Origin: Achromobacter dolens
GTDB lineage: Bacteria > Pseudomonadota > Gammaproteobacteria > Burkholderiales > Burkholderiaceae_B
DNA length: 64,000 nt
Assembly (NCBI RefSeq): GCF_902859745.1
Contig: NZ_CADIJW010000018.1
Location: 33,889-97,888, forward strand
Direction: 5' to 3'
Below the pieces are notes generated by a model. The model ran no database searches. It saw nothing but the letters and a program-made list of their open reading frames with translations, and was not told where the DNA came from. The translations under genes were made by a program, and so were the position numbers. Of this stretch, positions 20,897 to 33,103 are shown one piece after another (position 1 is the stretch's first letter; every line of letters starts with the position of its first letter).

Positions 20897-20901
20897 GGGC
20901 T

Positions 20902-20935
20902 GTGACCGCCCGGCGACATGACGCCGGGCGGTCAC
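20902..20935. terminator. Perfect 14-bp hairpin after the esterase gene
   Basis: The arm at 20902-20915 (GTGACCGCCCGGCG) pairs perfectly with 20922-20935 around a 6-nt loop. It starts 6 nt after the esterase stop and lies between convergent genes, so it probably stops transcription from the left. No U-run follows. Confidence 0.65.
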
Positions 20936-20940
20936 GCATG

Positions 20941-20972
20941 AACGCCGCGCGTCCGTCGGGACACGCGGCGTT
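20941..20972. terminator. Second hairpin between convergent genes
   Basis: AACGCCGCG (20941-20949) pairs with CGCGGCGTT (20964-20972), with an inner GTCC/GGAC pairing. It ends one base before the stop of the Crp-type gene on the other strand. The outer stem is shared with the hairpin at 15941-15983. Confidence 0.55.
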
Positions 20973-21671
20973 TCAGCATCCGGACGCCAGTTGTTCGAGC
21001 GCCGCGAGCCGCAGCACGTAGAGCGTGCCGGAGCGGCTGGCGATGATGCCTTCGCGGCGCCACTTGGAGAAGATGCGGCTGAGGGTCTCTGCCCGCATGC
21101 CGAGCTTGACGGCGATCTGCGAGTGGCTGAGCGGCAGGGTCAACGGCTGGCCGGCCTGAGGCTTGCCAGCGCGTAGCACGTATTCGGCCAGGCGTTCCTG
21201 CGCCGAACTGGAAGTGAGCCAGTCGATCCGGTCGGTGTGATGCCGCACCAGCGCGGCGCCGTGGGCGGCGACGCGGCAGGCGAAGCGGCCGTCGTCGCGA
21301 CATAGCTGCAGGAAGGCGCCTTGATGCAGCAGGCAACCATTGCCGTCGCGGCGGGCGCGGACATGATGCAGGTGGCGCGGCGTCGGCTCGAACATGGCCA
21401 GCACCGACAGCCAGCCGCCCGGGCCGACTTCGCCAAATATCTTGTCATCGCCATCAGCGGTGTAGCGCAGGCCCTGGACCAGCCCCTCGCACACCAGCAG
21501 GCACGCGGTTGCCGGCTGGCCTTCGGAAAACAGCGTGTCACCCGCCTCGAAGCGCAGCCAATGGGCGCGCGCCGCCAGCGCGCCGAGCGCGGCGTCGGCG
21601 ATGCCCTCGAACCAGGGATGGCGCCGCAACGCGGCGAGCAGAAGCGACTGAGACGAATTGACAATAGTCAT
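20973..21671 (-). CDS. Crp/Fnr-family transcriptional regulator
   Basis: A 232-residue regulator with an N-terminal cyclic-nucleotide-binding-type beta roll (about 15-130: WLRFEAGDTLFSEGQPA, then GWLSVLAMFEP) and a C-terminal Crp winged HTH (about 155-225: LPLSHSQIAVKLGMRAETLSRIFSKW). The Fnr-type cysteine cluster is absent, so oxygen sensing through Fe-S is not expected. The effector is unknown. It diverges from the metallophore/iron transport run, with only about 40 nt between the starts, and may regulate it together with Fur. Confidence 0.9.
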   Translation of the reverse strand: MTIVNSSQSLLLAALRRHPWFEGIADAALGALAARAHWLRFEAGDTLFSEGQPATACLLVCEGLVQGLRYTADGDDKIFGEVGPGGWLSVLAMFEPTPRHLHHVRARRDGNGCLLHQGAFLQLCRDDGRFACRVAAHGAALVRHHTDRIDWLTSSSAQERLAEYVLRAGKPQAGQPLTLPLSHSQIAVKLGMRAETLSRIFSKWRREGIIASRSGTLYVLRLAALEQLASGC

Positions 21672-21706
21672 TTGATCGGCGGAGGTGGCTACCTAGAATT
21701 CGAATC

Positions 21707-21725
21707 GAAAATGATTCCTGTTCAA
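21707..21725 (-). promoter_or_regulatory. Weak Fur-box-like sequence at the start of the transport operon
   Basis: Read on the minus strand this 19-mer agrees at 11 of 19 positions with the classical Fur consensus, including a contiguous AATCATT. It overlaps the annotated ATG at 21711. If it is a true Fur site, the GTG at 21738 becomes the better start for the binding-protein gene. Confidence 0.3.
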
Positions 21726-22859
21726 GATGCCCTCCCCGTGAAAAAATACAAGGCCAGGACCGCGCCGCAACCGCGCCGTCTTATAAGTTCTCCCATTGCC
21801 TTGAGCGCCTTGTCGGCGGCGTTGTCATGGTCGTCTGGCGCGGCGGCGCAGGGGCCCGTGCGCTTCACCGACATGCTCGGCAACCCGGTCACGCAGGCCG
21901 CGCCTGCGACGCGCGCGGTCTCGCTGCCGATGCCGGGCGGCACGCTGTTGATGTCATTGGACGGCGGCTCGTCGCGCCACCTGGCGGGCATGCATCCCGA
22001 CTCCTATGCGCGCATGGCCGACCCGGTGCCGTCGCGCCTGTTCCCGCACATGGAAAGCGTGCGCTCGGACATCACCCGGTCGGGCTTCGTGCCGAACGTG
22101 GAAACCCTGCTGCAGATCCGTCCCGACATGGTGTGGCAGTGGGGTCACATGGGAGACGACCTGATCGCGCCGCTGCGCAATGCCGGCCTGCCGGTGGCCG
22201 CGCTGCTCTACGGCACCGACGTGCGCACCCGCGAATGGATCCGGCTGATGGGGCATTCGCTCGGGCGGGATGCCCAAGCCGCCCGGCTGCTGGCGTGGCG
22301 CGACGAGGTGCGCGCGCAGATCCTTCGCGTCACCGGCGGCCTGCGCGCCGACGAGCGGCCGGGCGTGCTGTACCTGTCGCGCTACCGGCCGCAATTGCGC
22401 ACCTCGGGCGCGGGCAGCAGTTTCGATGACGACATCCAATTGACTGGCGGGCGCAACGTGGCCGCGGCAGTGGTCGGCACCGGCCAATCGGTCGGCATCG
22501 AGCAGATCATGGCCTGGGCGCCCGATGTGATCCTGCTGAACAACTTCGAGTCGGGCCTGACGCCCGCCATGATCTATGCCGATCCGCTGTTCGCGGATAT
22601 TCCGGCCGTGCGCAGCCATCGCGTCTACATGATTCCGGCCGGCGGCTATATCTGGGATCCCCCCAGCCAGGAATCGCCGTTGTACTGGCAGTGGCTGAGC
22701 CAGTTGCTGCATCCGAAGCGATTCGACTGGCCGCTGCGCGAGCGCATCGCGCAGGCCTACGCCTGGCTGTACGGCTATGACATCGACGCGGCCGATATCG
22801 ACAAGGTGCTGCGCATGCGCTTGAACCACGGAGCCGCCGGCTATGACCGCCTGCGCTGA
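21711..22859 (+). CDS. Periplasmic binding protein for a ferric-siderophore/cobalamin-type ABC importer
   Basis: About 382 residues of the FecB/BtuF class. A basic N-region (KKYKAR and QPRRL) and a Ser/Ala/Leu-rich core ending GAAAQG form the signal peptide. The mature domain starts VRFTDMLGNPV and includes NVETLLQIRPDMVWQWG and TGGRNVAA, typical of this fold. The start is unsure: ATG at 21711 or GTG at 21738, neither with a good ribosome site. Its last 17 nt overlap the permease gene. It is the first gene of a rightward run with permease, ATPase and two TonB receptors, so an iron or other metal chelate is the expected ligand. Confidence 0.85.
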   Translation: MIPVQDALPVKKYKARTAPQPRRLISSPIALSALSAALSWSSGAAAQGPVRFTDMLGNPVTQAAPATRAVSLPMPGGTLLMSLDGGSSRHLAGMHPDSYARMADPVPSRLFPHMESVRSDITRSGFVPNVETLLQIRPDMVWQWGHMGDDLIAPLRNAGLPVAALLYGTDVRTREWIRLMGHSLGRDAQAARLLAWRDEVRAQILRVTGGLRADERPGVLYLSRYRPQLRTSGAGSSFDDDIQLTGGRNVAAAVVGTGQSVGIEQIMAWAPDVILLNNFESGLTPAMIYADPLFADIPAVRSHRVYMIPAGGYIWDPPSQESPLYWQWLSQLLHPKRFDWPLRERIAQAYAWLYGYDIDAADIDKVLRMRLNHGAAGYDRLR

Positions 22860-23913
22860 ACGGAATCCCGCGCGGGGCGACGATCGGCGGCGCGCCTGGC
22901 CCTGGTGGCTGATGATCGCCGCGGCGCCGCTGTCGGCCCTGGCCGCGTTGTGCGTGGGGCGTTATGCCTTGCCGGCCTCTCACGTGGGCGCCGCGCTGGC
23001 CGGATGGGCGCTGCCCGACGGCCTGGCATCCTGGCTGCCGGCCGTCGCCGACGCCGAGCGCCGGGTGGTATTGCTGGTGCGCCTGCCGCGGGTGCTGCTG
23101 GCGCTGCTGGCCGGCTCCAGCCTGGCGCTGTGCGGCGCGGCCTTGCAGGGCGCCTTCCGCAACCCCCTGGTCGGGCCGCAGATCCTCGGCATTTCGTCCG
23201 GCGCCGCGTTTGGCGGGTGCGCGGCGATCCTGCTGTTCTCGTCGTTGTGGGCGACGCTCGGGCTGGCCTTTGCCGGCGGCCTGCTGGCGGTGGCCATCGT
23301 CTACCTGCTGGGCCGCTCGCGGGGGCGCACCACCATCCTGATGCTGGTGCTGGCGGGCGTGGTCACCAGCGCGTTCTTTTCCGCGCTGATCTCGCTGGCC
23401 ACCTATTTTGCCGATCCCTACGACAGCCTGCCGGCGATCGTGTTCTGGCTGATGGGCAGCTTCGCCACGGCGTCCTACGTCAAGCTGGGGGCGGCGGTGG
23501 CGCCCATCGCGGCGGGCATGGGGCTGTTGTTCGCGCTGCGGTTCCGCATCAACGTGCTGTCGCTGGGGGACGAGCAGGCCAGCGCCATGGGGCTGGCGGT
23601 CGAGCCGCTGCGCTGGATGCTGCTGGGCTGCGCCACGCTGGTGGTGTCGGCCAGCGTGGCGGTGTCCGGCACGGTGGGCTGGGTCGGGCTGGTGGTGCCG
23701 CACATCGCGCGCATGCTGGTCGGCCCGGATCACCGCGCGCTGCTGCCGGCCAGCGCCTTGCTTGGCGGCACCTACATGGTGTGGGTCGATACCGTGGCCC
23801 GCAGCGCCACCAGCGCCGAGATTCCGCTGGGCGTGATCACCGCGCTGGTCGGCGCGCCGCTGTTCGCATGGCTGTTGCGCCGCACGCAGGTCAGGGAGGC
23901 GGGCCATGCTTGA
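22843..23913 (+). CDS. FecCD-family ABC permease
   Basis: A 356-residue inner-membrane protein with about ten hydrophobic spans. Typical blocks are LVRLPRVLLALLAGSSLALCG, cut here by position (about 72-92), GAALQGAFRNPLVGPQILG, and VSGTVGWVGLVVPHIARML with the cytoplasmic coupling loop. One permease gene suggests a homodimeric channel, as in BtuC. It overlaps the binding-protein gene by 17 nt and the ATPase gene by 8 nt, so the three are translationally coupled. Confidence 0.92.
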   Translation: MTACAERNPARGDDRRRAWPWWLMIAAAPLSALAALCVGRYALPASHVGAALAGWALPDGLASWLPAVADAERRVVLLVRLPRVLLALLAGSSLALCGAALQGAFRNPLVGPQILGISSGAAFGGCAAILLFSSLWATLGLAFAGGLLAVAIVYLLGRSRGRTTILMLVLAGVVTSAFFSALISLATYFADPYDSLPAIVFWLMGSFATASYVKLGAAVAPIAAGMGLLFALRFRINVLSLGDEQASAMGLAVEPLRWMLLGCATLVVSASVAVSGTVGWVGLVVPHIARMLVGPDHRALLPASALLGGTYMVWVDTVARSATSAEIPLGVITALVGAPLFAWLLRRTQVREAGHA

Positions 23914-24640
23914 AGTGGATCGCCTTGCCGTGCAGGCCGGCGGCCGCGTGCTGCTGTCCAACCTGACGCTGCGCGTGCCGGCCGGCGGCGTGCTGGCCGT
24001 GCTGGGGCCGAACGGCCGGGGCAAGACCACCTTGCTCAAGACGCTGCTGGGGGTGCAGCCGCCGGCCGCTGGCGCGGTGCGCCTGCGCGGCCACGCCGCC
24101 TATGTGCCGCAGCGCACCGATTCGCTGTTCGCCTACGACGTGCTGGCCATGGTGACCATGGGCCGCGTGCGGCACCTGCGCTGGTGGGCCTCGCCCGGCC
24201 CGGGCGACCGCGAGATCGCCCGCGAGTGCCTGCGCGCCGTGCGGCTGGAGCATCTGGCGGCGCGGCCGTTCCACGCGCTCAGCGGCGGCGAACAGCAGTT
24301 GGCCTGCATCGCGCGGGCCATGGCCAGCGCCAGCCCCATCATCGTCCTGGACGAGCCCAGCGCGGCGCTCGATCTGCGCAACCAGGACGTGATCCTGACG
24401 CTGCTGCGGCGGCTGGCGGGCGAGGGCATGACGGTGGTGTTCTCGACCCACCAGCCGCAGCACGCGCAGCACATCGCCGACCAGACCCTGTTGATGCATC
24501 CCGACGCCTGCGAGGCCGGCCCCACCGGACAGATGTGCACCGACGAACGCCTGAGCCGGCTGTACGGCTTGCCGGTGCGGGTAACCACCGTCACCGCCGA
24601 CCGCCGCGAGGTGCCGGGCGTGATTCCTCTTTTCCATTGA
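23906..24640 (+). CDS. ABC transporter ATPase (ferric-siderophore/cobalamin type)
   Basis: A 244-residue nucleotide-binding subunit of the FecE/FhuC/BtuD class. Walker A is GPNGRGKTT, the signature LSGGEQQLA, Walker B IIVLDEPSAALD and the switch His STHQPQ. Q-loop region: YVPQRTDSLFAYDV. It overlaps the permease gene by 8 nt. Five nt after its stop lies the first of two unrecognised conserved-looking genes, so the operon continues. Confidence 0.93.
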   Translation: MLEVDRLAVQAGGRVLLSNLTLRVPAGGVLAVLGPNGRGKTTLLKTLLGVQPPAAGAVRLRGHAAYVPQRTDSLFAYDVLAMVTMGRVRHLRWWASPGPGDREIARECLRAVRLEHLAARPFHALSGGEQQLACIARAMASASPIIVLDEPSAALDLRNQDVILTLLRRLAGEGMTVVFSTHQPQHAQHIADQTLLMHPDACEAGPTGQMCTDERLSRLYGLPVRVTTVTADRREVPGVIPLFH

Positions 24641-24645
24641 ATCCG

Positions 24646-25248
24646 ATGAACACCATCGTCTATTTGAATCACTGGACCGGCGACGGTCCAGCCGCGTTGA
24701 CCGGCGGCGATGCGCCGCCGGCCGTCGCCGAACCCCTGTACGCCCTGCACCGTCTGGAACTGGCGACGGTACGGGCCTTGCTGGTGCCGGCCAATACCGA
24801 CCAGCGCTATCTGCTGTCGCAGCAGGCTCGGCTGGAGGCCTGGCTGCTGGCGGGCGGCACGATGGTGTTCAACGGCCACGTGGCCTATCCCTTCCTGCGC
24901 TGGCTGGCGCCGTTCGCGCCCGGCCCGGCGCGCGGCATCGAGGGACTGCGGCTGCACCGCGCCCAGGCGCATCCCGTGTTCGATGGCGTCGATCCGGAAC
25001 ACCTGACCTTCCGCCGCGGCGTGGCCGGCTTCTACGCGCGCGGCGGCAACCCGCCGCCGGCCGGCGCCAGCGTGCTGCATACGCTGGGGCCGGACGCGGT
25101 GCCGGTGGACTGGGTGCTGTCCTTGCCCGGCGGCGGCCGCCTGTTCACGCATTCCGGCAACGACATGTGGATGTATGCGGGCAGCGCGGACAGCACCCGC
25201 CGCATCGTGCCGCAACTGATCGACTGGCTGCGCGGGGAGGCGGCATGA
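24646..25248 (+). CDS. Unrecognised Rossmann/amidotransferase-like protein A of the transport operon
   Basis: A 200-residue soluble protein with no signal peptide. I do not recognise a named family. The pattern of ALLVPANTD, then a helix, then LAGGTMVFNGH looks like the alternating strand/helix core of class I glutamine-amidotransferase-like or ThuA-like folds, but no Cys nucleophile elbow is seen. It begins 5 nt after the ATPase stop and overlaps the next gene by 4 nt (ATGA). Its layout parallels the next protein: a strand, RLEAWLLAGG against RLARFLAAGK, and a late GGRLFTHSGN against AGRLIVTSLD. The two are probably distant paralogues. Function unknown; context ties it to metal-chelate uptake. 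Confidence 0.8.
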   Translation: MNTIVYLNHWTGDGPAALTGGDAPPAVAEPLYALHRLELATVRALLVPANTDQRYLLSQQARLEAWLLAGGTMVFNGHVAYPFLRWLAPFAPGPARGIEGLRLHRAQAHPVFDGVDPEHLTFRRGVAGFYARGGNPPPAGASVLHTLGPDAVPVDWVLSLPGGGRLFTHSGNDMWMYAGSADSTRRIVPQLIDWLRGEAA

Positions 25249-25895
25249 TCCACGACGCCCATTCCGTTTCGAACCGGCGCGCGCCGGTGATCGCCGCGCT
25301 GGACGCCGGCACCTACTACCACCATCGCACCTTCCACACGCCGGAACTGGCGGCGTACATCGACCGGGTGATCTACCTGCCGGAACTGGATGACGCCGCC
25401 CTGGAGGGCTGCGACGCCTTGATCGTGTCGTGCCGCATCAATCCCGAGCTGCTGGTGGCGCAGCGGGCGCGCTTGGCCCGCTTCCTGGCGGCCGGCAAGA
25501 CGCTGGTGGCGATGGGCGAGACCGGCTCGCACCGCTGGCTGGATGGCGTGTGCTGGACCGATTGCGAAGTGAATTTCTGGTGGTGGAAGACGCCGGGGGC
25601 CGATCCCGGCCTGCGGCTGGCGGCGCCCGACCATTCGCTGTTCCGGTATCTGACGCTGGCCGATGTCACCTGGCACCAGCATGGCACCTATGCGCCGCCG
25701 CCGGGCGCGGTCTCGCTGGTCGACAAGGTCGACGCCGGATCGGTGCTGTACGAGGACCGCTGCAGCACGGCGGGCCGGCTGATCGTCACCTCGCTCGATC
25801 CGATGTACCACCACGGCAGTTATTTCATGCCGGCCACCAGCCGCTTCCTGCGCGGTTTCCTGCCGTGGCTGAAAGATTCCACGCCCGCCGCCTGA
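25245..25895 (+). CDS. Unrecognised Rossmann/amidotransferase-like protein B of the transport operon
   Basis: A 216-residue soluble protein without a signal peptide. It contains DALIVSCRINPELL, RLARFLAAGKTLVAMGE, a Trp-rich stretch NFWWWK (about residues 108-113) and a His-rich HQHGTY, ending with SLDPMYHHGSYF. The His and Trp residues could mark a metal or ligand site, which is speculation. Fold-level resemblance to the preceding gene product suggests an old duplication and perhaps a heterodimer. Its start overlaps that gene (ATGA), and it precedes the first TonB receptor by 42 nt. No named family recognised. Confidence 0.8.
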   Translation: MIHDAHSVSNRRAPVIAALDAGTYYHHRTFHTPELAAYIDRVIYLPELDDAALEGCDALIVSCRINPELLVAQRARLARFLAAGKTLVAMGETGSHRWLDGVCWTDCEVNFWWWKTPGADPGLRLAAPDHSLFRYLTLADVTWHQHGTYAPPPGAVSLVDKVDAGSVLYEDRCSTAGRLIVTSLDPMYHHGSYFMPATSRFLRGFLPWLKDSTPAA

Positions 25896-25937
25896 GGCGG
25901 CATCCTTCCGGCCTCCGGGCTATTGCGCTTTTTTCGT

Positions 25938-28106
25938 ATGACTCATTCCTTCCCGTCCTCGCCCTTCGTCCGCGCCATCCTGCTGGCAGCCGCCAGCCTC
26001 GGCGCGCCCGCCATGGCCGCCGAGACCGCCGCGCAGCTTCCCGCCATTCGCGTCACGGCCGAAGACGCCGCCGTCGACGACGGCCGCCTGCATGCCATTG
26101 GCGCCGCGCCGCCGCCGGCGACGCTCGACCATACGGTCACGCAATCGGTGTCGGTGGTGGATCGCCAGGACCTCGACCGGCTCAGCGCCATCAGCACGCT
26201 CGAACTGTTGGGCAGAATTCCGAACGCCACCATCAATCTGGGCGGCGGCATTGGCGGCACCTTGTTCCTGCGCGGCATGGACACGCTCGATATGCGGGTA
26301 CCCGTGTTCATCGACGGCGATCGCTTTCGCGGCCGCAACAAATTGCAGTTCATGCTCATCAGCCCCACCGAGCTGGAAGCGGTCGAGGTGGTGCGGGGGC
26401 CTGATTCGGCACGCTTTGGCAGCGATGGGCTGGGGGGCTTGATCAACTTCGTCACCAAGCGCGCCCGTGGCAACCTGGATCACGGGTTCACCGTGAACGG
26501 CGGCGAGGTGTCGACCACCTGGCAGAGCAATGGCAATGGCAGGCAGGCCAACGCGGCGCTGGAGGCGGCCGGCGATGGCTTCGACCTGCGCGTCTATGCC
26601 ACCGGACGGCGCGCCGGCAACTTCCGCAGCGCCGAGGGCGCAGTGCCGAACAGTGATTTCCGCAGCGCGGGCGGCGGCATCGTGCTGGGCTACATGCCGG
26701 ATGCGCGCCAACGTATCGAGATCAGCGGCCGCATGGCGCACGTCAACGAAGGCTGGGCGGGCACCGTGCCGCCCTATCCGCTGGCCAGAACGCGCAGCAA
26801 TCCCCTGAACGTCAAGCAGGGAAGGCTGGCCTATCGGGGCGAGTTCGACGGCGCGATCAGCGAATTGCGCGCCAGCGTCTACGTCAACGAATTCGACACC
26901 ACGCTGGTGGTGCACAACCAGGCCAACCCGGATCGCGTGCTGGACGTGCAGCGCCACGTGCCGGGGCCGCTGGCGTATGGGGGCAGCCTGGCTGCAACCC
27001 TTCCGTGGGCCAGTGTCGCCACCACGGTCGGCATGGATTTCATGCATGAAAACTGGCCCGGCCAGGAACGGCGCACACAGGTGACGCTGCGCCAACCGGA
27101 CGGCGCCACCCGCATCGCTCGCGGCGACTGGGTGCCCAGCGGACCGTCCCGCTACCAGACCAATATCGGCGCCTTCCTGAGCAATGAGTGGACGATTTCG
27201 CCAAAGTGGACGTTGACCGCCGGCGGCCGCCTGGATTGGTACCGTTCCGATGTCGACCTTTCCCCCCTGCCGTCGCCCGATCTGCTGCCGGCGTTCCGCG
27301 CGGCGCGCAACAACCAGCAGACCGCCACGACCGGCAGCCTGGGGGTGTCGTATCGCGCTACGCAGGTGGTCGAACTGCTGGGCAGCGTAGGCAATTCGTT
27401 CCGCATGCCGTGGATCTTCGACATGTTCGACGCCGGCTTCACGGGCGCGAGCTATTCCTTCCCCAACCCCCGGCTCAAGCCCGAGCGCGGCACCAACGTG
27501 GACATCGGCACCCGCCTGCATTTCGAGGATGCCAGCGTTGGCCTGACCGCGTTCCGCAGCGATTTCCGCGACTTCATCGAGAACGTCAACACCCAGTACA
27601 ACGGCCTGCCCGCCACCCAAAAGGCGAATGTGGGCAAGGTCCGGGTGCAGGGGGTGGAAAGCGACTGGCGCTGGCAGGTGACGCGCGCGCTCAACCTGTA
27701 TGGCAGCGCCGGCTACCTGCATGCCACCAACCGCATCACCCACCGGCCGCTGCCCTCCATCGCCACGCTCAGCGGCCTGATGGGGGTGCAGTACGTCGGG
27801 CCGAATGACGCCTATGCATTCGGCGCCGAATTGCAGTGGGCCAAGGGGCAGGGCCGTTATGACGACCGCAAGGAATACCCGGCGGCCGGCTTTGGCGTGG
27901 TCAACCTGTCCGCGCAATTGCAGTTGGACCGGCTGGGCTTGCCGAGGGTGGGCAATACCCAGGCGGTGTTCAGCATCAACAACCTGTTCGACCGCGCGTA
28001 TCGCACCGCCGCCACGGCGTCGAATGTCAATTACCCCATGACGGGCCTGAACCCGTTGCTGCAGCCGGGGCGCAGCGTCAATGTGACGTTGCGGACACGG
28101 TTCTGA
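25938..28106 (+). CDS. TonB-dependent outer-membrane receptor, copy 1
   Basis: A 722-residue receptor. The signal peptide (FVRAILLAAASLG...AMA) is followed by a TonB-box-like LPAIRVTAED, the plug domain (SVSVVDRQDLDRL, VVRGPDSARFGSDGLGGLI) and a 22-strand-type barrel ending in NVTLRTRF with the terminal Phe needed for outer-membrane assembly. There is no N-terminal STN signalling domain. The start is the ATG at 25938; the frame is open slightly further from a TTG. It is highly similar to the next gene along its whole length. Operon position behind a FecCD-type importer makes a metal chelate the likely ligand. Confidence 0.93.
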   Translation: MTHSFPSSPFVRAILLAAASLGAPAMAAETAAQLPAIRVTAEDAAVDDGRLHAIGAAPPPATLDHTVTQSVSVVDRQDLDRLSAISTLELLGRIPNATINLGGGIGGTLFLRGMDTLDMRVPVFIDGDRFRGRNKLQFMLISPTELEAVEVVRGPDSARFGSDGLGGLINFVTKRARGNLDHGFTVNGGEVSTTWQSNGNGRQANAALEAAGDGFDLRVYATGRRAGNFRSAEGAVPNSDFRSAGGGIVLGYMPDARQRIEISGRMAHVNEGWAGTVPPYPLARTRSNPLNVKQGRLAYRGEFDGAISELRASVYVNEFDTTLVVHNQANPDRVLDVQRHVPGPLAYGGSLAATLPWASVATTVGMDFMHENWPGQERRTQVTLRQPDGATRIARGDWVPSGPSRYQTNIGAFLSNEWTISPKWTLTAGGRLDWYRSDVDLSPLPSPDLLPAFRAARNNQQTATTGSLGVSYRATQVVELLGSVGNSFRMPWIFDMFDAGFTGASYSFPNPRLKPERGTNVDIGTRLHFEDASVGLTAFRSDFRDFIENVNTQYNGLPATQKANVGKVRVQGVESDWRWQVTRALNLYGSAGYLHATNRITHRPLPSIATLSGLMGVQYVGPNDAYAFGAELQWAKGQGRYDDRKEYPAAGFGVVNLSAQLQLDRLGLPRVGNTQAVFSINNLFDRAYRTAATASNVNYPMTGLNPLLQPGRSVNVTLRTRF

Positions 28107-28113
28107 GCCTGTC

Positions 28114-28137
28114 GCGCGGGGCCCTGTTGCCCCGCGC
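28114..28137. terminator. Hairpin between the two TonB receptor genes
   Basis: GCGCGGGG (28114-28121) pairs with CCCCGCGC (28130-28137) around an 8-nt loop. No T-run follows, so it may attenuate rather than end transcription, or protect the upstream message. Confidence 0.35.
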
Positions 28138-28206
28138 GCCGGCTTTCATCGCCGCCGCGCAAGGCGGCGTTTCTCCGGCCTTCGGGCTTTGCCTTTGCGT
28201 TCCCGT

Positions 28207-30369
28207 ATGACTCATCCCTTTCCGCATTTGCCCCTGGTCCGCGCTTTCCTGCTCGCGGCCACCACCCTTGGCGTGCCCGCCGTGGCCGCAGAACCCGCGC
28301 AACTGCCTGCCATCCGCGTCACGGCCGGCGACGGCGCGGACGACGGCCGCCTGCACGCCATCGGCGCCGCCCCGCCGCCGGCGACGCTGGACCATGCGGT
28401 GACGCAATCGGTGTCGGTGGTCGATCGCCAGGACATCGACCGGCTCAGCCCCATCAGCACCCTGGAGCTATTGAGCCGGATTCCGAACGCCACCATCAAC
28501 CACACGGGCGGCATTGCCGGCACGGTATTCCTGCGCGGCATGAACACCAATGACATGCGGGTGCCTGTCTTCATCGACGGCAATCGCTTCCGTGGCCGCA
28601 ATACCCTGCAATTCATGCTGATCAGCCCGACCGAGCTGGAGCAGGTCGAGGTGGTGCGGGGGCCGGATTCGGCGCGCTTCGGCAGCGATGGGCTGGGCGG
28701 CCTGATCAACTTTGTCACCCGGCGCGCCCACGGCAATCTGGATCATGCATTCCAGCTCAATGGCGGCGAGGTGTCGGCGTCGTGGCGCAGCAACGCCAAC
28801 GCGCTGCAGGCCAACGCCGCGCTCGAAGCCGCCGGCGACGGCTTCGACCTGCGCGTGTATGCCACCGGCCGGCGCGCCAGCAATTTCCGCAGCGCCACCG
28901 AAGAGGTGCCCAACAGCGGTTTTCGCGGCGCGGGCGGCGGCATCGTGCTGGGCTACATGCCCGACGCGCGCCAACGCATCGAGATCAGTGGCCGCATGGC
29001 GCACGTGAACGACGATGCCGCCGGCGCGGTGCCGCCGTATCCGCTGGCCAGCAGCCATCGAGATCCGCTGGCCGTCAAGCAGGGCAAGCTCGACTATGCC
29101 GGTGAATTCGACGGCCTGGTCAGCGAGTTGCGGGCCAGCCTGTACGTCAACGAATTCGACACCACCCTGGCCGCGCACAACGAGGTAAACCCGGCCCGGG
29201 TGGTCGACGTGCGCCGCCACGTGATCGGGCCGCTGGTCTATGGCGGCAACCTCGCCGCGACCCTTCCGTGGGCCAGCGTCGCCACCACGGTCGGCATGGA
29301 TTTCATGCACGAAACCTGGCCGGGCCAGAAACTGCGCACCCGGACGACGGTGCGCCAGCCCGATGGCGCCACCACCCGGAACCGTGGCGATTGGATCCGC
29401 GGCGGACCGACCCGTTACCAGACCAACATTGGCCTGTTCCTGAGCAACGAATGGAACCCCGCGCCCAAATGGACGGTGAGCGCGGGCGGCCGCTACGACT
29501 GGTACCGTTCCGACGTTGGCCTCAGTCCGCTGCCGTCGCCCGATCTGCTGCCGGCCTTCCGCGCCGCCCGGAACAACCAGCAGACCGCCATCACCGGCAG
29601 CCTGGGGTTGTCGTACCGCGCCACCGAGGTGGTGGAACTGCTGGGCAGCGTGGGCAATTCGTTCCGCATGCCGTGGATCTTCGACATGTTCGACGCCGGC
29701 TTCACCGGAACCGGCTACACCTTTCCGAATCCCCGGCTCAAGCCCGAGCGCGGCACCAATGTGGATGTCGGCACCCGTCTGCATTTCGCCGACGCCACGG
29801 TCGGCCTGACGGCGTTCCGCAGCGACTTCCGCGATTTCATCGAGAGCGTCGACACGATGTATCTGGGGCTGCCGGCGACGCAGCGCGCGAACGTGGGCAA
29901 GGCGCGCGTGCAGGGATTCGAAAGCGACTGGCGCTGGCAAGTGACGCGCGCGCTCAACCTGTATGGCAGCGCCAGCTATCTGCACGCCACCGACCTGGTC
30001 ACCCATCGGCCGCTGCCTTCCATCGCCGCGCTCAGCGGCCTGATGGGCGTGCAGTATGTGGGGCCGAACGAGGCCTACGCCCTGAGCGGGGAACTGAAGT
30101 GGGCCAAGGGGCAGAACCGCTACGACGAGCGCAAGGAATATCCCGCCGCCGGCTTTGGCGTGGTCAACCTGTACGCGCAACTCCAGTTGGATAAGCTCGG
30201 ATTGCCACGGGCCGGCAATACCCAGGCCGTGCTGGGCGTCAGCAATCTGTTCAACCGCGCCTACCGTAGCGCGGCCACGGCCTCGAACGTGAATTACGCC
30301 ATGACGGACCAGAATCCATTGCTGCAGCCGGGGCGCAGTTTCAACCTGACGCTGCGGACGCGGTTTTGA
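28207..30369 (+). CDS. TonB-dependent outer-membrane receptor, copy 2 (tandem paralogue)
   Basis: A 720-residue receptor collinear with the preceding one, with long identical runs in plug and barrel. It shares the VVRGPDSARFGSDGLGGLI plug motif, the GNSFRMPWIFDMFDAGFTG barrel block and a terminal LTLRTRF. Differences cluster in predicted outer loops: for example, residues after TVPPYPLA versus AVPPYPLA and after TWPGQ differ, and the ends of the NTQYNGLP and DTMYLGLP segments differ. This would fit altered ligand preference. The 30-40 nt before the ATG are also similar to those of copy 1, so the duplication included the leader. No STN domain. Confidence 0.93.
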   Translation: MTHPFPHLPLVRAFLLAATTLGVPAVAAEPAQLPAIRVTAGDGADDGRLHAIGAAPPPATLDHAVTQSVSVVDRQDIDRLSPISTLELLSRIPNATINHTGGIAGTVFLRGMNTNDMRVPVFIDGNRFRGRNTLQFMLISPTELEQVEVVRGPDSARFGSDGLGGLINFVTRRAHGNLDHAFQLNGGEVSASWRSNANALQANAALEAAGDGFDLRVYATGRRASNFRSATEEVPNSGFRGAGGGIVLGYMPDARQRIEISGRMAHVNDDAAGAVPPYPLASSHRDPLAVKQGKLDYAGEFDGLVSELRASLYVNEFDTTLAAHNEVNPARVVDVRRHVIGPLVYGGNLAATLPWASVATTVGMDFMHETWPGQKLRTRTTVRQPDGATTRNRGDWIRGGPTRYQTNIGLFLSNEWNPAPKWTVSAGGRYDWYRSDVGLSPLPSPDLLPAFRAARNNQQTAITGSLGLSYRATEVVELLGSVGNSFRMPWIFDMFDAGFTGTGYTFPNPRLKPERGTNVDVGTRLHFADATVGLTAFRSDFRDFIESVDTMYLGLPATQRANVGKARVQGFESDWRWQVTRALNLYGSASYLHATDLVTHRPLPSIAALSGLMGVQYVGPNEAYALSGELKWAKGQNRYDERKEYPAAGFGVVNLYAQLQLDKLGLPRAGNTQAVLGVSNLFNRAYRSAATASNVNYAMTDQNPLLQPGRSFNLTLRTRF

Positions 30370-30464
30370 GGTTTTCCGGTCGCGGGAACCGAACCCGGCC
30401 GCGCCGGTCCATAGCCAACGGATCGGCCGCCGGCCAGTCCGCTTGATATATCAAGGAAGACCTC

Positions 30465-30620
30465 ATGTTCGGAATTGGAATCGCCCTGGCCATTCTTGGC
30501 GCCGTGTGCGTGCACGCGGCGATCGGCACGCATCGCGCCGGGTGTGAGCGCCGCGACAGTTATGCCCTGGCGGGGCTGGGCATCGTCGCGGGAAGCGGCG
30601 GCGCGTTGTTGCTGGTCTAG
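30465..30620 (+). CDS. Small two-helix membrane protein (51 residues)
   Basis: A short frame with a good ribosome site (AAGGAAG, 7 nt before the ATG). Its 51 residues form two hydrophobic helices (about 3-20 and 34-51) joined by a charged loop with HRAGCERRD. It begins 95 nt after the second TonB receptor and is closed by a strong rho-independent terminator 20 nt after its stop, which supports real expression as the operon's last gene. Function unknown. Confidence 0.6.
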   Translation: MFGIGIALAILGAVCVHAAIGTHRAGCERRDSYALAGLGIVAGSGGALLLV

Positions 30621-30640
30621 GCGCCGCGCTGGCAGGCAGG

Positions 30641-30672
30641 CGGGCGTCCCGGCCTCGGGACGCCCGTTTTTT
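30641..30672 (+). terminator. Rho-independent terminator of the iron-transport operon
   Basis: CGGGCGTCCC (30641-30650) pairs perfectly with GGGACGCCCG (30657-30666), followed by six T residues (30667-30672). The T-run reaches the stop codon of the convergent receptor gene. Confidence 0.9.
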
Positions 30673-33103
30673 ACCAGTAGTACTTCACCGACGCCACCAC
30701 CGTGCGGCCGTTGCCGTACATGCACACGCCGTACGACTGGCAGCCGCTGACATAACGCTTGTCGAACAGGTTGGCGGCGTTCAGGGCGAAACGCCAGTTC
30801 GGCATTTCATAGTGCAGGCCGGCGTCGTAGACGGTGTAGCTGGGGATCTTCAGCGAATTGTCGGCCGCGCCCGCGGCCGAGCTCTGGTAGCGCACGCCCG
30901 CGCCGGCGCCGAAGCCTTCCAGCGGCCCGGTGCGCCAGGTCCAGTCGGCCCACAGCGAGGCCATCTGGCGCGGACGCGGGATGTCCACCGGCCACTTGCC
31001 CTGGGTCTCGTCGTTGGCCTTGGTGATTTTGACGTTCTGGAACACGTAGGCGCCGACGATGGACAGTTCGGGCGTGATCTTGCCCACGGCGCTCAGCTCG
31101 ACGCCCTGCGAGCGCACCGCGCCGGTCTGCAGGTAGCTGCTGTTGGTCGGGTCGTTCGGGTTGTTGGTGACGACGTCGGTCTGCTTGATCTGGTAAATGG
31201 CGGCGTTCAGCGTCAGGTTCTTGCCGTCGGGCTGCCAGCGCAGGCCGGCCTCGATCTGTTTGCCCTGGGTCGGCTTGGCCCAGTTGCCGTCGGCCAGGCG
31301 CGTGTTCGAGACCGGGTTGAACGAGGTCGAATAGCTGACGTAGGGCGACAGGCCGTAATCGCCAAGATAGGTCAGGCCGACGCGGCCGGTGAAGGCCTGG
31401 TCCAGCTGCGCGGCGCGGGTGTCGGCCTCGCGGTCGTTCTGGCGGGTGCGGGCCCAGTCCTTGCGGCCGCCCAGCGTCAGCACCCAGCGGTCCCACTTGA
31501 TCTGGTCCTGCGCGTACAGGCCCACCGTGTTCATGACGGTATAGGTGTCGGTGCGCGGGAAGGCGTTGGGGCCGTAGAAGATCGAGCGGTTGATCGGCGT
31601 GTAGACCGGGTGGTAGACGTTGAGCGACGGCGCCAGCGCCATCCATTCGCTGTCGATGGTGGACTGGCGGCTGTATTCCAGGCCGGTCAGCAGCGTGTGT
31701 TCGAGCGCGCCGGTGCGGAATCTGGCCTCCGCCTGGTTGTCGATGTCGAAACGGCTGTAGTTGAATTGGAAGCGGCCGGCATAGCGCGTGATCGTGGCCT
31801 GGGTCGGGTCGCTGTCATCCAGGCCGCCGCCCCAGACCGAACGGTTATTCAGCTGCAGGTGCATCAGGCGCGTGTTCTGGCGCAGGGTCCAGACCGAATC
31901 CAGTTTGTGTTCCAGCGCGTAGCCGACCGACCATTGCTTCTTGTGATAGTCGTTGAAGTCCGGCTCGCCGGTATAGACGTCGCGCGAAATGCGGCCATTG
32001 GGATTGGACAGCACCGTGCCCTGGGCGGGCAGGAAATTGGTGTTGATGTCGCCCCAGTCTTCCAGGTAGGTGGCCGACAGCGTCAGGCTGGTGGCGGCGC
32101 TGGGCTGCCAGCGCAGCGACGGCGCGAACACCACGCGCTGGTCCTTGTTGGGGCCGGTCTGGGCGTTGCCGTCGCGGCCCACGCCCAGGATGCGGTACGA
32201 CAGCGTGCCGTCCTCGTTGAGGCTGTCGCCGAGGTCGAAACTGAGCTGCTTGCGGGCGTAGTTGCCGACCTGGGTCTCGATCTCGCGGATGCGCTCGCCG
32301 TTGGCCAGCTTGCTCTGCACGTCGACGATGGCGCCGGGGTCGCCCTGGCCGTACAGCACCGAGGTCGGGCCGCGCAGCACGGTGATGCTGTCGATCAGGT
32401 AGGGATCGACGCGCCAGCTGGCCAGGTTGAGCGTGTTGGGCACCTGCAGGCCGTCGACGTAGGCCGTGGGGGTGAAGCCGCGCAGGGCCGAATACCAGTC
32501 GGAACGGTTGTCCGAGCCATAGCTGGAGAAGCCGGGCACGTAGTGCAGCGCCTGGTTGATGTCGGTGGCGCCGGTCATCTCCAGCTGCTGCGCGGTGACC
32601 ACGTTGATGGTCTGCGGGATCTCGTTGAGCGCGGTGTCGGTCTTGGTGCCGGTGCGGCTGCGGCGCGCCACCAGGCCTTCGATCGCGTCGCCCCGGGTGT
32701 CGCCATAGACCGAGACGGTGGGCAGCGTGGCGGTGTCGGCGGCGGGCGGCTGCACCACCGCGGTGTTGCCGGTGATGCGCGCGACCAGGCCCGTGCCGGC
32801 CAGCAGGCGGTCCAGCGCCTGTTGCGGTGTCAGGGTGCCGCTGATGGCGGGCGCGCGCCGGTCCTGCACCGCTTCGGGCAGGTAGTAGACCTGTAGATTG
32901 GTCTGGCGGCCCAGGTGCAGCAGCGCCTGCGCCAGTGACTGGGCGGGCAGGTTGATCTTGACGGCGGCGGCTTGCGCGTGGGCGGCGGACGGCGCGGCGC
33001 CCAGGGCGACGGCGAGGGCAAGGGTCAGGGTGCCGAGGGCGGCATGCAGCGGCGTGGCGCGGGGGCGCGGGAGGCGGGTGGGCCTGGCGGAAATCTGGGT
33101 CAC
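30671..33103 (-). CDS. TonB-dependent siderophore receptor with STN signalling domain
   Basis: An 810-residue transducer-type receptor. After the signal peptide (cleavage near AHAQ) comes an STN domain (about 50-115: INLPAQSLAQALLHLG, LTPQQALDRLLAGTGL). This is followed by the TonB box region, plug (NEIPQTINVVTAQQLEMTGATD cut by position about 163-185; VLRGPTSVLYGQGDPGAI) and barrel ending SVKYYW. The plug and barrel style matches ferric hydroxamate or pyoverdine-type receptors (FpvA/FoxA/FhuE class). The STN domain should contact the FecR-like protein encoded just upstream. Expression is expected to depend on the FecI-like sigma and Fur. Confidence 0.93.
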   Translation of the reverse strand: MTQISARPTRLPRPRATPLHAALGTLTLALAVALGAAPSAAHAQAAAVKINLPAQSLAQALLHLGRQTNLQVYYLPEAVQDRRAPAISGTLTPQQALDRLLAGTGLVARITGNTAVVQPPAADTATLPTVSVYGDTRGDAIEGLVARRSRTGTKTDTALNEIPQTINVVTAQQLEMTGATDINQALHYVPGFSSYGSDNRSDWYSALRGFTPTAYVDGLQVPNTLNLASWRVDPYLIDSITVLRGPTSVLYGQGDPGAIVDVQSKLANGERIREIETQVGNYARKQLSFDLGDSLNEDGTLSYRILGVGRDGNAQTGPNKDQRVVFAPSLRWQPSAATSLTLSATYLEDWGDINTNFLPAQGTVLSNPNGRISRDVYTGEPDFNDYHKKQWSVGYALEHKLDSVWTLRQNTRLMHLQLNNRSVWGGGLDDSDPTQATITRYAGRFQFNYSRFDIDNQAEARFRTGALEHTLLTGLEYSRQSTIDSEWMALAPSLNVYHPVYTPINRSIFYGPNAFPRTDTYTVMNTVGLYAQDQIKWDRWVLTLGGRKDWARTRQNDREADTRAAQLDQAFTGRVGLTYLGDYGLSPYVSYSTSFNPVSNTRLADGNWAKPTQGKQIEAGLRWQPDGKNLTLNAAIYQIKQTDVVTNNPNDPTNSSYLQTGAVRSQGVELSAVGKITPELSIVGAYVFQNVKITKANDETQGKWPVDIPRPRQMASLWADWTWRTGPLEGFGAGAGVRYQSSAAGAADNSLKIPSYTVYDAGLHYEMPNWRFALNAANLFDKRYVSGCQSYGVCMYGNGRTVVASVKYYW

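Follow-up and report, generated by a model that had tools for sequence, protein, structure and literature searches.

The operon described here, which lies in a 64,000-nucleotide stretch of an Achromobacter dolens contig (the window), is most closely related to FecCD-type, BtuCD-like importers of metal chelates and corrinoids, with which it shares a periplasmic substrate-binding protein (SBP), a FecCD permease, an ATP-binding cassette (ABC) ATPase and TonB-dependent receptors (TBDTs) encoded in one operon. The SBP, the permease and the ATPase all exceed the curated cut-offs of their families, and the operon differs from those importers in carrying two adjacent genes for proteins named A and B. 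The nickel importer NiuBDE of Helicobacter pylori is comparable in that the SBP profile of this operon type matches nickel-labelled chains, and the available part of the published account names no A/B-like genes for it (PMC5140060). A and B share with GATase1-like domains (ThuA, DUF4159, DUF4350) a weak sequence similarity of single members, and differ from them in staying under the curated cut-offs, in lacking a conserved cysteine at the elbow and in forming an importer-tied pair of two paralogues. The pair accompanies ABC importers of several classes and might process or release the imported chelate in the cytoplasm.

On the sequence and profile comparisons, A and B are diverged paralogues: they are 27% identical across 169 positions (BLASTP), and hhalign relates their profiles with a probability of 99.2 and an E value of 5.8e-20 (42 B rows, 39 A rows), or 98.5 and 2e-15 with smaller alignments of 17 rows each. 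The larger alignments, A7 for B and A8 for A, hold chosen rows out of the 60 copies introduced below, and A8 leaves out the A proteins of loci L028 and L033, as well as the partial A proteins of L083 and L084. In L028 and L033, gene A is split over two reading frames, by a frameshift or a sequencing error. A preliminary description of this DNA had ascribed a common strand/helix layout to A and B, here related at the level of sequence, and had left both proteins without a named family; the latter holds at the curated cut-offs of Pfam and NCBIfam, none of which is passed by either protein. The profile search it proposed likewise gave no confident family match, but weak similarity of single members to DUF4159 (PF13709), DUF4350 (PF14258) and ThuA (PF06283), which we take to share the GATase1-like fold. 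The best E value to DUF4159 is 0.0011 across the 42 B rows and 0.00038 across the 39 A rows; the A protein of the window matches DUF4350 at an E value of 0.0047 (17.7 bits, under the cut-off of 30.4), and its B protein has no Pfam match at all. A and B thus seem weakly similar to, and near, the GATase1-like group. A nucleophile cysteine at the elbow is the defining residue of the class I glutamine amidotransferase group, and neither a match of the window's proteins over the cut-offs of the member families nor a conserved elbow cysteine was found that would place A and B among class I glutamine amidotransferases or ThuA proteins. The commonest cysteine column is C63 of B (28/42), outside the elbow as placed by eye, and no cysteine column of A exceeds 6/39. 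Searches of the PDB with both sequences returned no reliable match, and a ThuA-like match to 1t0b (E value 0.025) vanished when the alignment was enlarged.

Other residues are strongly conserved. B retains W112, W113, W114, H130, W143, H144, D171, D185 and H189 in at least 90% of its 42 rows, with W113, W114, H130, W143, H144 and D185 invariant and H189 present in 40, while A has an invariant D52, and R132, D155, W156 and H169 recur in 90% or more of its 39 rows. The W/H/D set of B and the D/R/H set of A look like a ligand pocket. In addition, the A and B proteins of the window show no obvious signal peptide on inspection by eye, and this N-terminus suggests a cytoplasmic location for both.

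The genomic surroundings of the pair were surveyed in 63 stretches of about 20 kb, 57 of which yielded 60 copies of B. Loci L079, L080, L081 and L088 were dropped as the same contigs as L007, L010, L012 and L015, and L111 and L112 (fragment, weak match) were dropped as well, together with one 79-bit B-like domain in the open reading frame (ORF) at 118-1470 of L097. This ORF encodes a divergent two-domain relative made up of two B-like domains and adjoins a NicO gene. Gene A lies within 250 bp of B on the same strand in 58 of the 60 copies, and the two are fused into one ORF in 15 (nine in A-B order and six in B-A order); the eight copies in B-A order, fused or separate, form one clade on the B tree (100/100). 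An importer gene lies at most 250 bp from the pair, on the same strand, in 48 copies, which bears out the suggestion that A and B accompany importers. The contrary pattern, homologues usually found away from TonB and ABC genes, fails for the ABC part, but receptors are not constant neighbours. Among the other 12 copies, four are divergent from an importer or receptor-importer operon (L100 to L102 and the second pair of L018, which faces away from a FecCD operon and was scored as FecCD), L021 and L097 have a HupE-like gene in between, L019 has its importer at 305 bp, L083 has its pair split by about 10 kb, L097 contributes one extra copy, and three are weighed below. In L083, toxin-antitoxin-like genes, recognized by eye, lie between A and B, which looks like the result of an insertion between the two. 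For 37 of the 60 copies, a FecCD gene of the same orientation lies no more than 1.3 kb away, against a background of 11 FecCD matches in this 6.29-Mb genome, where BPD_transp_1 matches 132 places. At least one importer-component match occurs anywhere in the fetched stretch for 57/60, a weak measure, since the common ABC genes can match by chance at distances of up to 10 kb.

The accompanying importers are of more than one kind. FecCD importers account for 38 of the B copies, Dpp/NikA importers for 12, NMT1/SsuA for four, YnjB for two and Fbp for one, with none found for three. The YnjB label comes from the binding protein of L084, which matches PRK11622 with 391.7 bits (cut-off 203), and the Fbp label of L031 from the record annotation and matches to SBP_bac_8 and SBP_bac_6; on this evidence, YnjB and Fbp may be one broad class. 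Judged by these matches, the pair firmly occurs with four importer classes, or five if the Fbp and YnjB kinds are split, and a BPD_transp_1 permease (PF00528) accompanies it in L089. Receptors are a less regular companion, since a TBDT lies within 7 kb of at least 17 of the 60 copies by profile search, a lower bound because the profile threshold misses the receptor of L100, found by Pfam, and that of L102, just below it. The pair is also present in Paenibacillus and in a haloarchaeon, both without a Gram-negative outer membrane. The position of A and B between importer and receptors, correctly described for this operon, is therefore a local arrangement, as receptors are near only part of the copies. 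Similarly, the inner- and outer-membrane parts are recognizable Pfam families here, but elsewhere the receptors are inconstant and the importer need not be FecCD. Since the pair occurs alongside several classes of importer and also in the absence of receptors, it goes with import or a later step, and not with a type of receptor or pump.

In the proposed mechanism, the operon would import a metal chelate across both membranes, passing it from the receptor to the binding protein, then through the FecCD permease and ATPase, and finally to A:B. A and B would form one cytoplasmic two-subunit complex, which would bind the imported chelate and hydrolyse or exchange its ligands, whereupon the metal would be released; we infer the direct contact between A and B, the metal-chelate cargo and the chemistry. 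The preliminary description had offered processing, release or sensing as roles for the pair, and processing or release after import appears to be the favoured one. That a cytoplasmic A:B complex processes or releases the imported chelate is tentatively put forward here as the leading explanation, at a level of confidence falling a little short of probable. A more far-reaching version is rather doubtful, namely that A and B are an importer-independent heteromeric enzyme of two GATase1-like paralogues, associated with ABC importers of four or five kinds and often with the FmdE-like protein C as a third part, which would dismantle one class of imported metallophores in the cytoplasm of bacteria and haloarchaea.

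Several observations bear on these proposals, most of them against. No nucleophile cysteine is conserved in A or B (42 and 39 rows, elbow placed by eye). Three of the 60 B copies (L096, L098 and L099) have no importer match in their fetched stretches of about 20 kb. To our knowledge, NMT1- and YnjB-type importers are not known as metal importers, and C-P lyase genes in 3/60 neighbourhoods point to other cargo. On the favourable side, a Fur-like box matching at 15/19 positions was found in two of 39 upstream regions, those of L036 and L087 (equalled by 1 and 0 of 300 shuffles and by 0/780 control windows), and 14/19, a score which 11/780 control windows also reach, in L013 and L030. Such a box may control expression in the Cupriavidus-type relatives; the other 37 of the 39 regions stay below 15/19, and the best box in the promoter of the window scores 10/19, a value reached by 173/300 shuffles. 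Also in favour, a single clade is rejected on the B tree for the 38 FecCD rows (p-AU 0.021) and for 11 of the 12 Dpp rows (p-AU 0.031, the divergent row L097_B190 having been omitted after the tree was seen), and both values are only modest. Importer labels change nine times on this tree, on which long branches meet in places, with five changes as the least possible; when seven long or isolated rows are left unlabelled, there are four changes, and the four remaining labels need at least three. Repeated re-pairing of A and B with importers is consequently only lightly supported.

Among the alternatives, the one that survives best, though unlikely, is that A and B, together with C in those loci that have it, serve as chaperones for nickel or cobalt or handle its chelates, the metal arriving as a chelate and being passed on by them. 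In L021 and L097, a gene of the HupE/UreJ type separates the importer from A, a NicO nickel/cobalt transporter gene is near in L097, and the binding protein of L021 is closest to the Opp4A and NikA models, below their cut-offs; these HupE and NicO neighbours were seen in two loci. A profile of 15 SBPs of the window type matches the solved chains 4ovk, 4hn9, 4pag, HI_1472, 2etv, 4ino and 4ls3, all with stronger scores than the heme or B12 binding proteins on the same list. The chains 4ino and 4ls3 are labelled nickel (4ino also iron) and presumably come from H. pylori, while 4hn9 and 2etv, labelled iron, rank as high or higher, and HI_1472 is, we assume, a molybdate/tungstate binder. Against nickel and cobalt also stands the Fur-like box of the Cupriavidus-type loci. 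Taken as hints, these data make both iron and nickel/cobalt possible cargo, and among the best 25 rows per protein, no known-cargo NCBIfam model reaches its cut-off. Heme was considered and rejected as cargo, as TIGR01785 (heme), the best NCBIfam model for the two receptors (230.5 and 239.5 bits), stays below its cut-off of 316.85, and a HemP link is limited to one locus, near the Methylocystis operon.

Gene C bears on the same alternative. It is FmdE-like and is found with 22/60 copies, at a distance of no more than 4 kb and in the same orientation. In several relatives from Achromobacter and Bordetella it follows the receptor; in L013, L020, L021 and L034, among others, it comes immediately after B, in L016 and L033 it follows the ATPase gene, and in Paenibacillus it precedes A. 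It was not detected by tblastn in the window, L006 or L007, nor in this genome with one query and no positive control. According to the FmdE structure study, PF02663 genes mostly adjoin metal-ion transporter genes, as C likewise adjoins transporter genes, and the metal site, with ligands His, His, Cys and Cys, holds Zn/Ni in one structure (PMC2954224). This resemblance favours nickel or cobalt handling, but C lacks both cysteines of the site described there (PMC2954224), with no cysteine conserved in 10 aligned C proteins. Moreover, one of two C members scanned reaches 22.2 bits against PF02663, under the cut-off of 22.9, and the other has no match, so that C stays outside the FmdE family on both the Pfam cut-off and the cysteine ligands. 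A PDB search with C gave nothing reliable.

A role of A and B as sensors of the imported ligand, which would regulate its uptake by gating transport or through gene expression without converting it, is distinctly unlikely. The GATase nucleophile is not conserved, as in ligand-binding relatives of enzymes, and most FecCD copies have the pair next to the ATPase gene, which would suit such a sensor; however, 90% or more of the diverged rows retain the polar residues, a pattern like that of active sites, no DNA-binding domain was matched in A or B, and a Crp/Fnr gene is already near the operon in 13 FecCD-labelled copies.

An organic cargo such as phosphonate, with A and B as catabolic enzymes, appears improbable. 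On three plasmids, from Labrenzia, Agrobacterium vitis and Martelella (L016, L020 and L033), phn genes come after a FecCD importer and C: phnGHIJ in L033, phnG, phnH and phnI in L016, where the stretch ends within phnI, and in L020 phnGHIJ behind a second importer and C, beside the pair. No phnM is annotated in these three stretches. The NMT1-type binding proteins of L028 and L100 also match Phosphonate-bd. Nevertheless, the C-P lyase copies all fall within one clade of nine, and metal uptake agrees better with the TonB receptors and with the Fur-like box of beta-proteobacteria. In L100 to L102, receptor-importer operons of the NMT1/SsuA type stand divergent from the A/B pair with NnrS-like genes behind, as seen by eye, and the receptor of L100 is closest to a TonB-copper model, under its cut-off. 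Finally, it is highly improbable that A and B join the importer as additional soluble subunits without acting on the cargo, as the tight coupling to importer genes might suggest, because one conserved docking surface for both PF01032 and PF00528 permeases is hard to imagine, and in four copies A and B are divergent from the importer operons.

Returning to the operon itself, all eight ORFs lie on the + strand from 21711 to about 30620 (Table 1), and the eight-gene composition given earlier was recovered in both ORFs and families. SBP and FecCD genes overlap by 17 bp, FecCD and ATPase genes by 8 bp, and A and B by 4 bp (ATGA, as previously noted), while the gaps measure 5 bp between the ATPase gene and A, 42 bp between B and receptor 1, 100 bp between the receptors and 95 bp before the small ORF. 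The operon is closest to those of other Achromobacter, with B 94% identical to the B of A. ruhlandii LMG 1866. The two receptors are 82% identical, and their tandem arrangement (25938-30369) is also seen in L006 and L007, while in several relatives a single receptor gene precedes gene C. The 51-amino-acid ORF, counted earlier as the eighth gene, is present and kept in L009 (98% identity) and L010 (80%, as in its duplicate L080), where it sits behind gene C, but has no significant match in L006 or L007, the nearest relatives, and may be taken as a weak operon member. The terminator ascribed to the operon is there, its fold reaching -35.1 kcal/mol (z -2.78 over 61 nt; 3/200 shuffles equally good); it is absent from the matches of a consensus scan, which yielded six terminator-like matches, about as many as expected by chance (shuffle mean 5.4). 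The stop codon of an ORF at 30671-33103 on the - strand, which resembles a further TBDT (365 bits, TBDT profile), touches this terminator. No RNA family reaches its gathering threshold within 20900-31000.

Table 1. Features of the uptake operon and its flanks, with positions in the window.
Feature	Position	Strand	Remarks
Crp/Fnr-family regulator	20973..21671	-	divergent from operon; HTH_Crp_2 6.6e-16, cNMP_binding 2.6e-15
Near-palindrome TTGACAATAGTCAT	21658..21671		candidate Crp/Fnr-regulator site; overlaps first codons of regulator as called
Sigma-70-like promoter match TTGATC-16-TAGAAT	21672..21699	+	start estimated at ~21706
Periplasmic binding protein (Peripla_BP_2)	21711..22859	+	1.2e-13; 51.5 bits, curated cut-off 27.5
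FecCD-type permease	22843..23913	+	PF01032, 1e-85; 287.9 bits, curated cut-off 26.5
ABC ATPase	23906..24640	+	PF00005 (ABC_tran), 1.5e-23; 84.4 bits, curated cut-off 25
Protein A	24646..25248	+	paralogue of B
Protein B	25245..25895	+	paralogue of A
TonB-dependent receptor 1	25938..28106	+	TonB barrel and plug matches
TonB-dependent receptor 2	28207..30369	+	tandem duplicate of receptor 1; TonB barrel and plug matches
51-amino-acid hydrophobic ORF	30465..30620	+	uncertain operon member
Rho-independent terminator	30641..30672	+	GC-rich hairpin and T6

The neighbouring Crp/Fnr protein may control expression of the operon. The near-palindrome TTGACAATAGTCAT is identical in the window, L006 to L012 and L082, with close variants in L013 and L014 and weaker ones in L036 and L087, a conservation which could partly be coding in view of the overlap with the regulator gene. 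With up to three mismatches allowed, the surrounding 19-mer matches the genome once, and for this reason the Crp/Fnr protein may be a dedicated regulator. Control by this protein as part of denitrification or the NO response, suggested by NnrS genes in Martelella, was rejected on the same single match. A Crp/Fnr match is found near 14/60 B copies, the 13 mentioned above being FecCD-labelled. The promoter match is not above chance (one found, shuffle mean 0.7), and TAGAAT recurs by eye in several relatives. Calculated from the start estimated by this not-above-chance match, the centre of the palindrome would lie at about -41.5, and this position is the usual place for class II activation.

Relatives of B were found in 5/200 genomes of the window's own family (query P0002), in at least 2/369 of the class and at least 4/398 of the phylum (own genome counted in each), as well as in at least 17/297 genomes of the order of G905 and at least 9/151 of the family of G814. 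As well, 32 plasmid records match, including those of Rhizobium, Martelella, Labrenzia, Methylocystis, Methylosinus, Cupriavidus, Aliivibrio, Paenibacillus and the haloarchaeon Natribaculum, and more distant B proteins used as queries led to largely the same plasmid genera. Of the 18 matching records examined, 14 have gene annotation and four have none, and the pair is annotated "hypothetical protein" in all 14. Among the matches listed, the open-access literature, which leaves subscription papers uncovered, gave no paper on such a pair.

The release of metal from imported chelates inside bacteria is understood for few systems. A pair found with different classes of pump points to the cargo or to a common step after import, and the A/B pair offers an experimental handle in many hosts, by deletion, pull-down or ligand screen. 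If A and B do act as an importer-independent enzyme, they would represent a way of freeing metal inside the cell that is distinct from the ferric reductases and the siderophore esterases.

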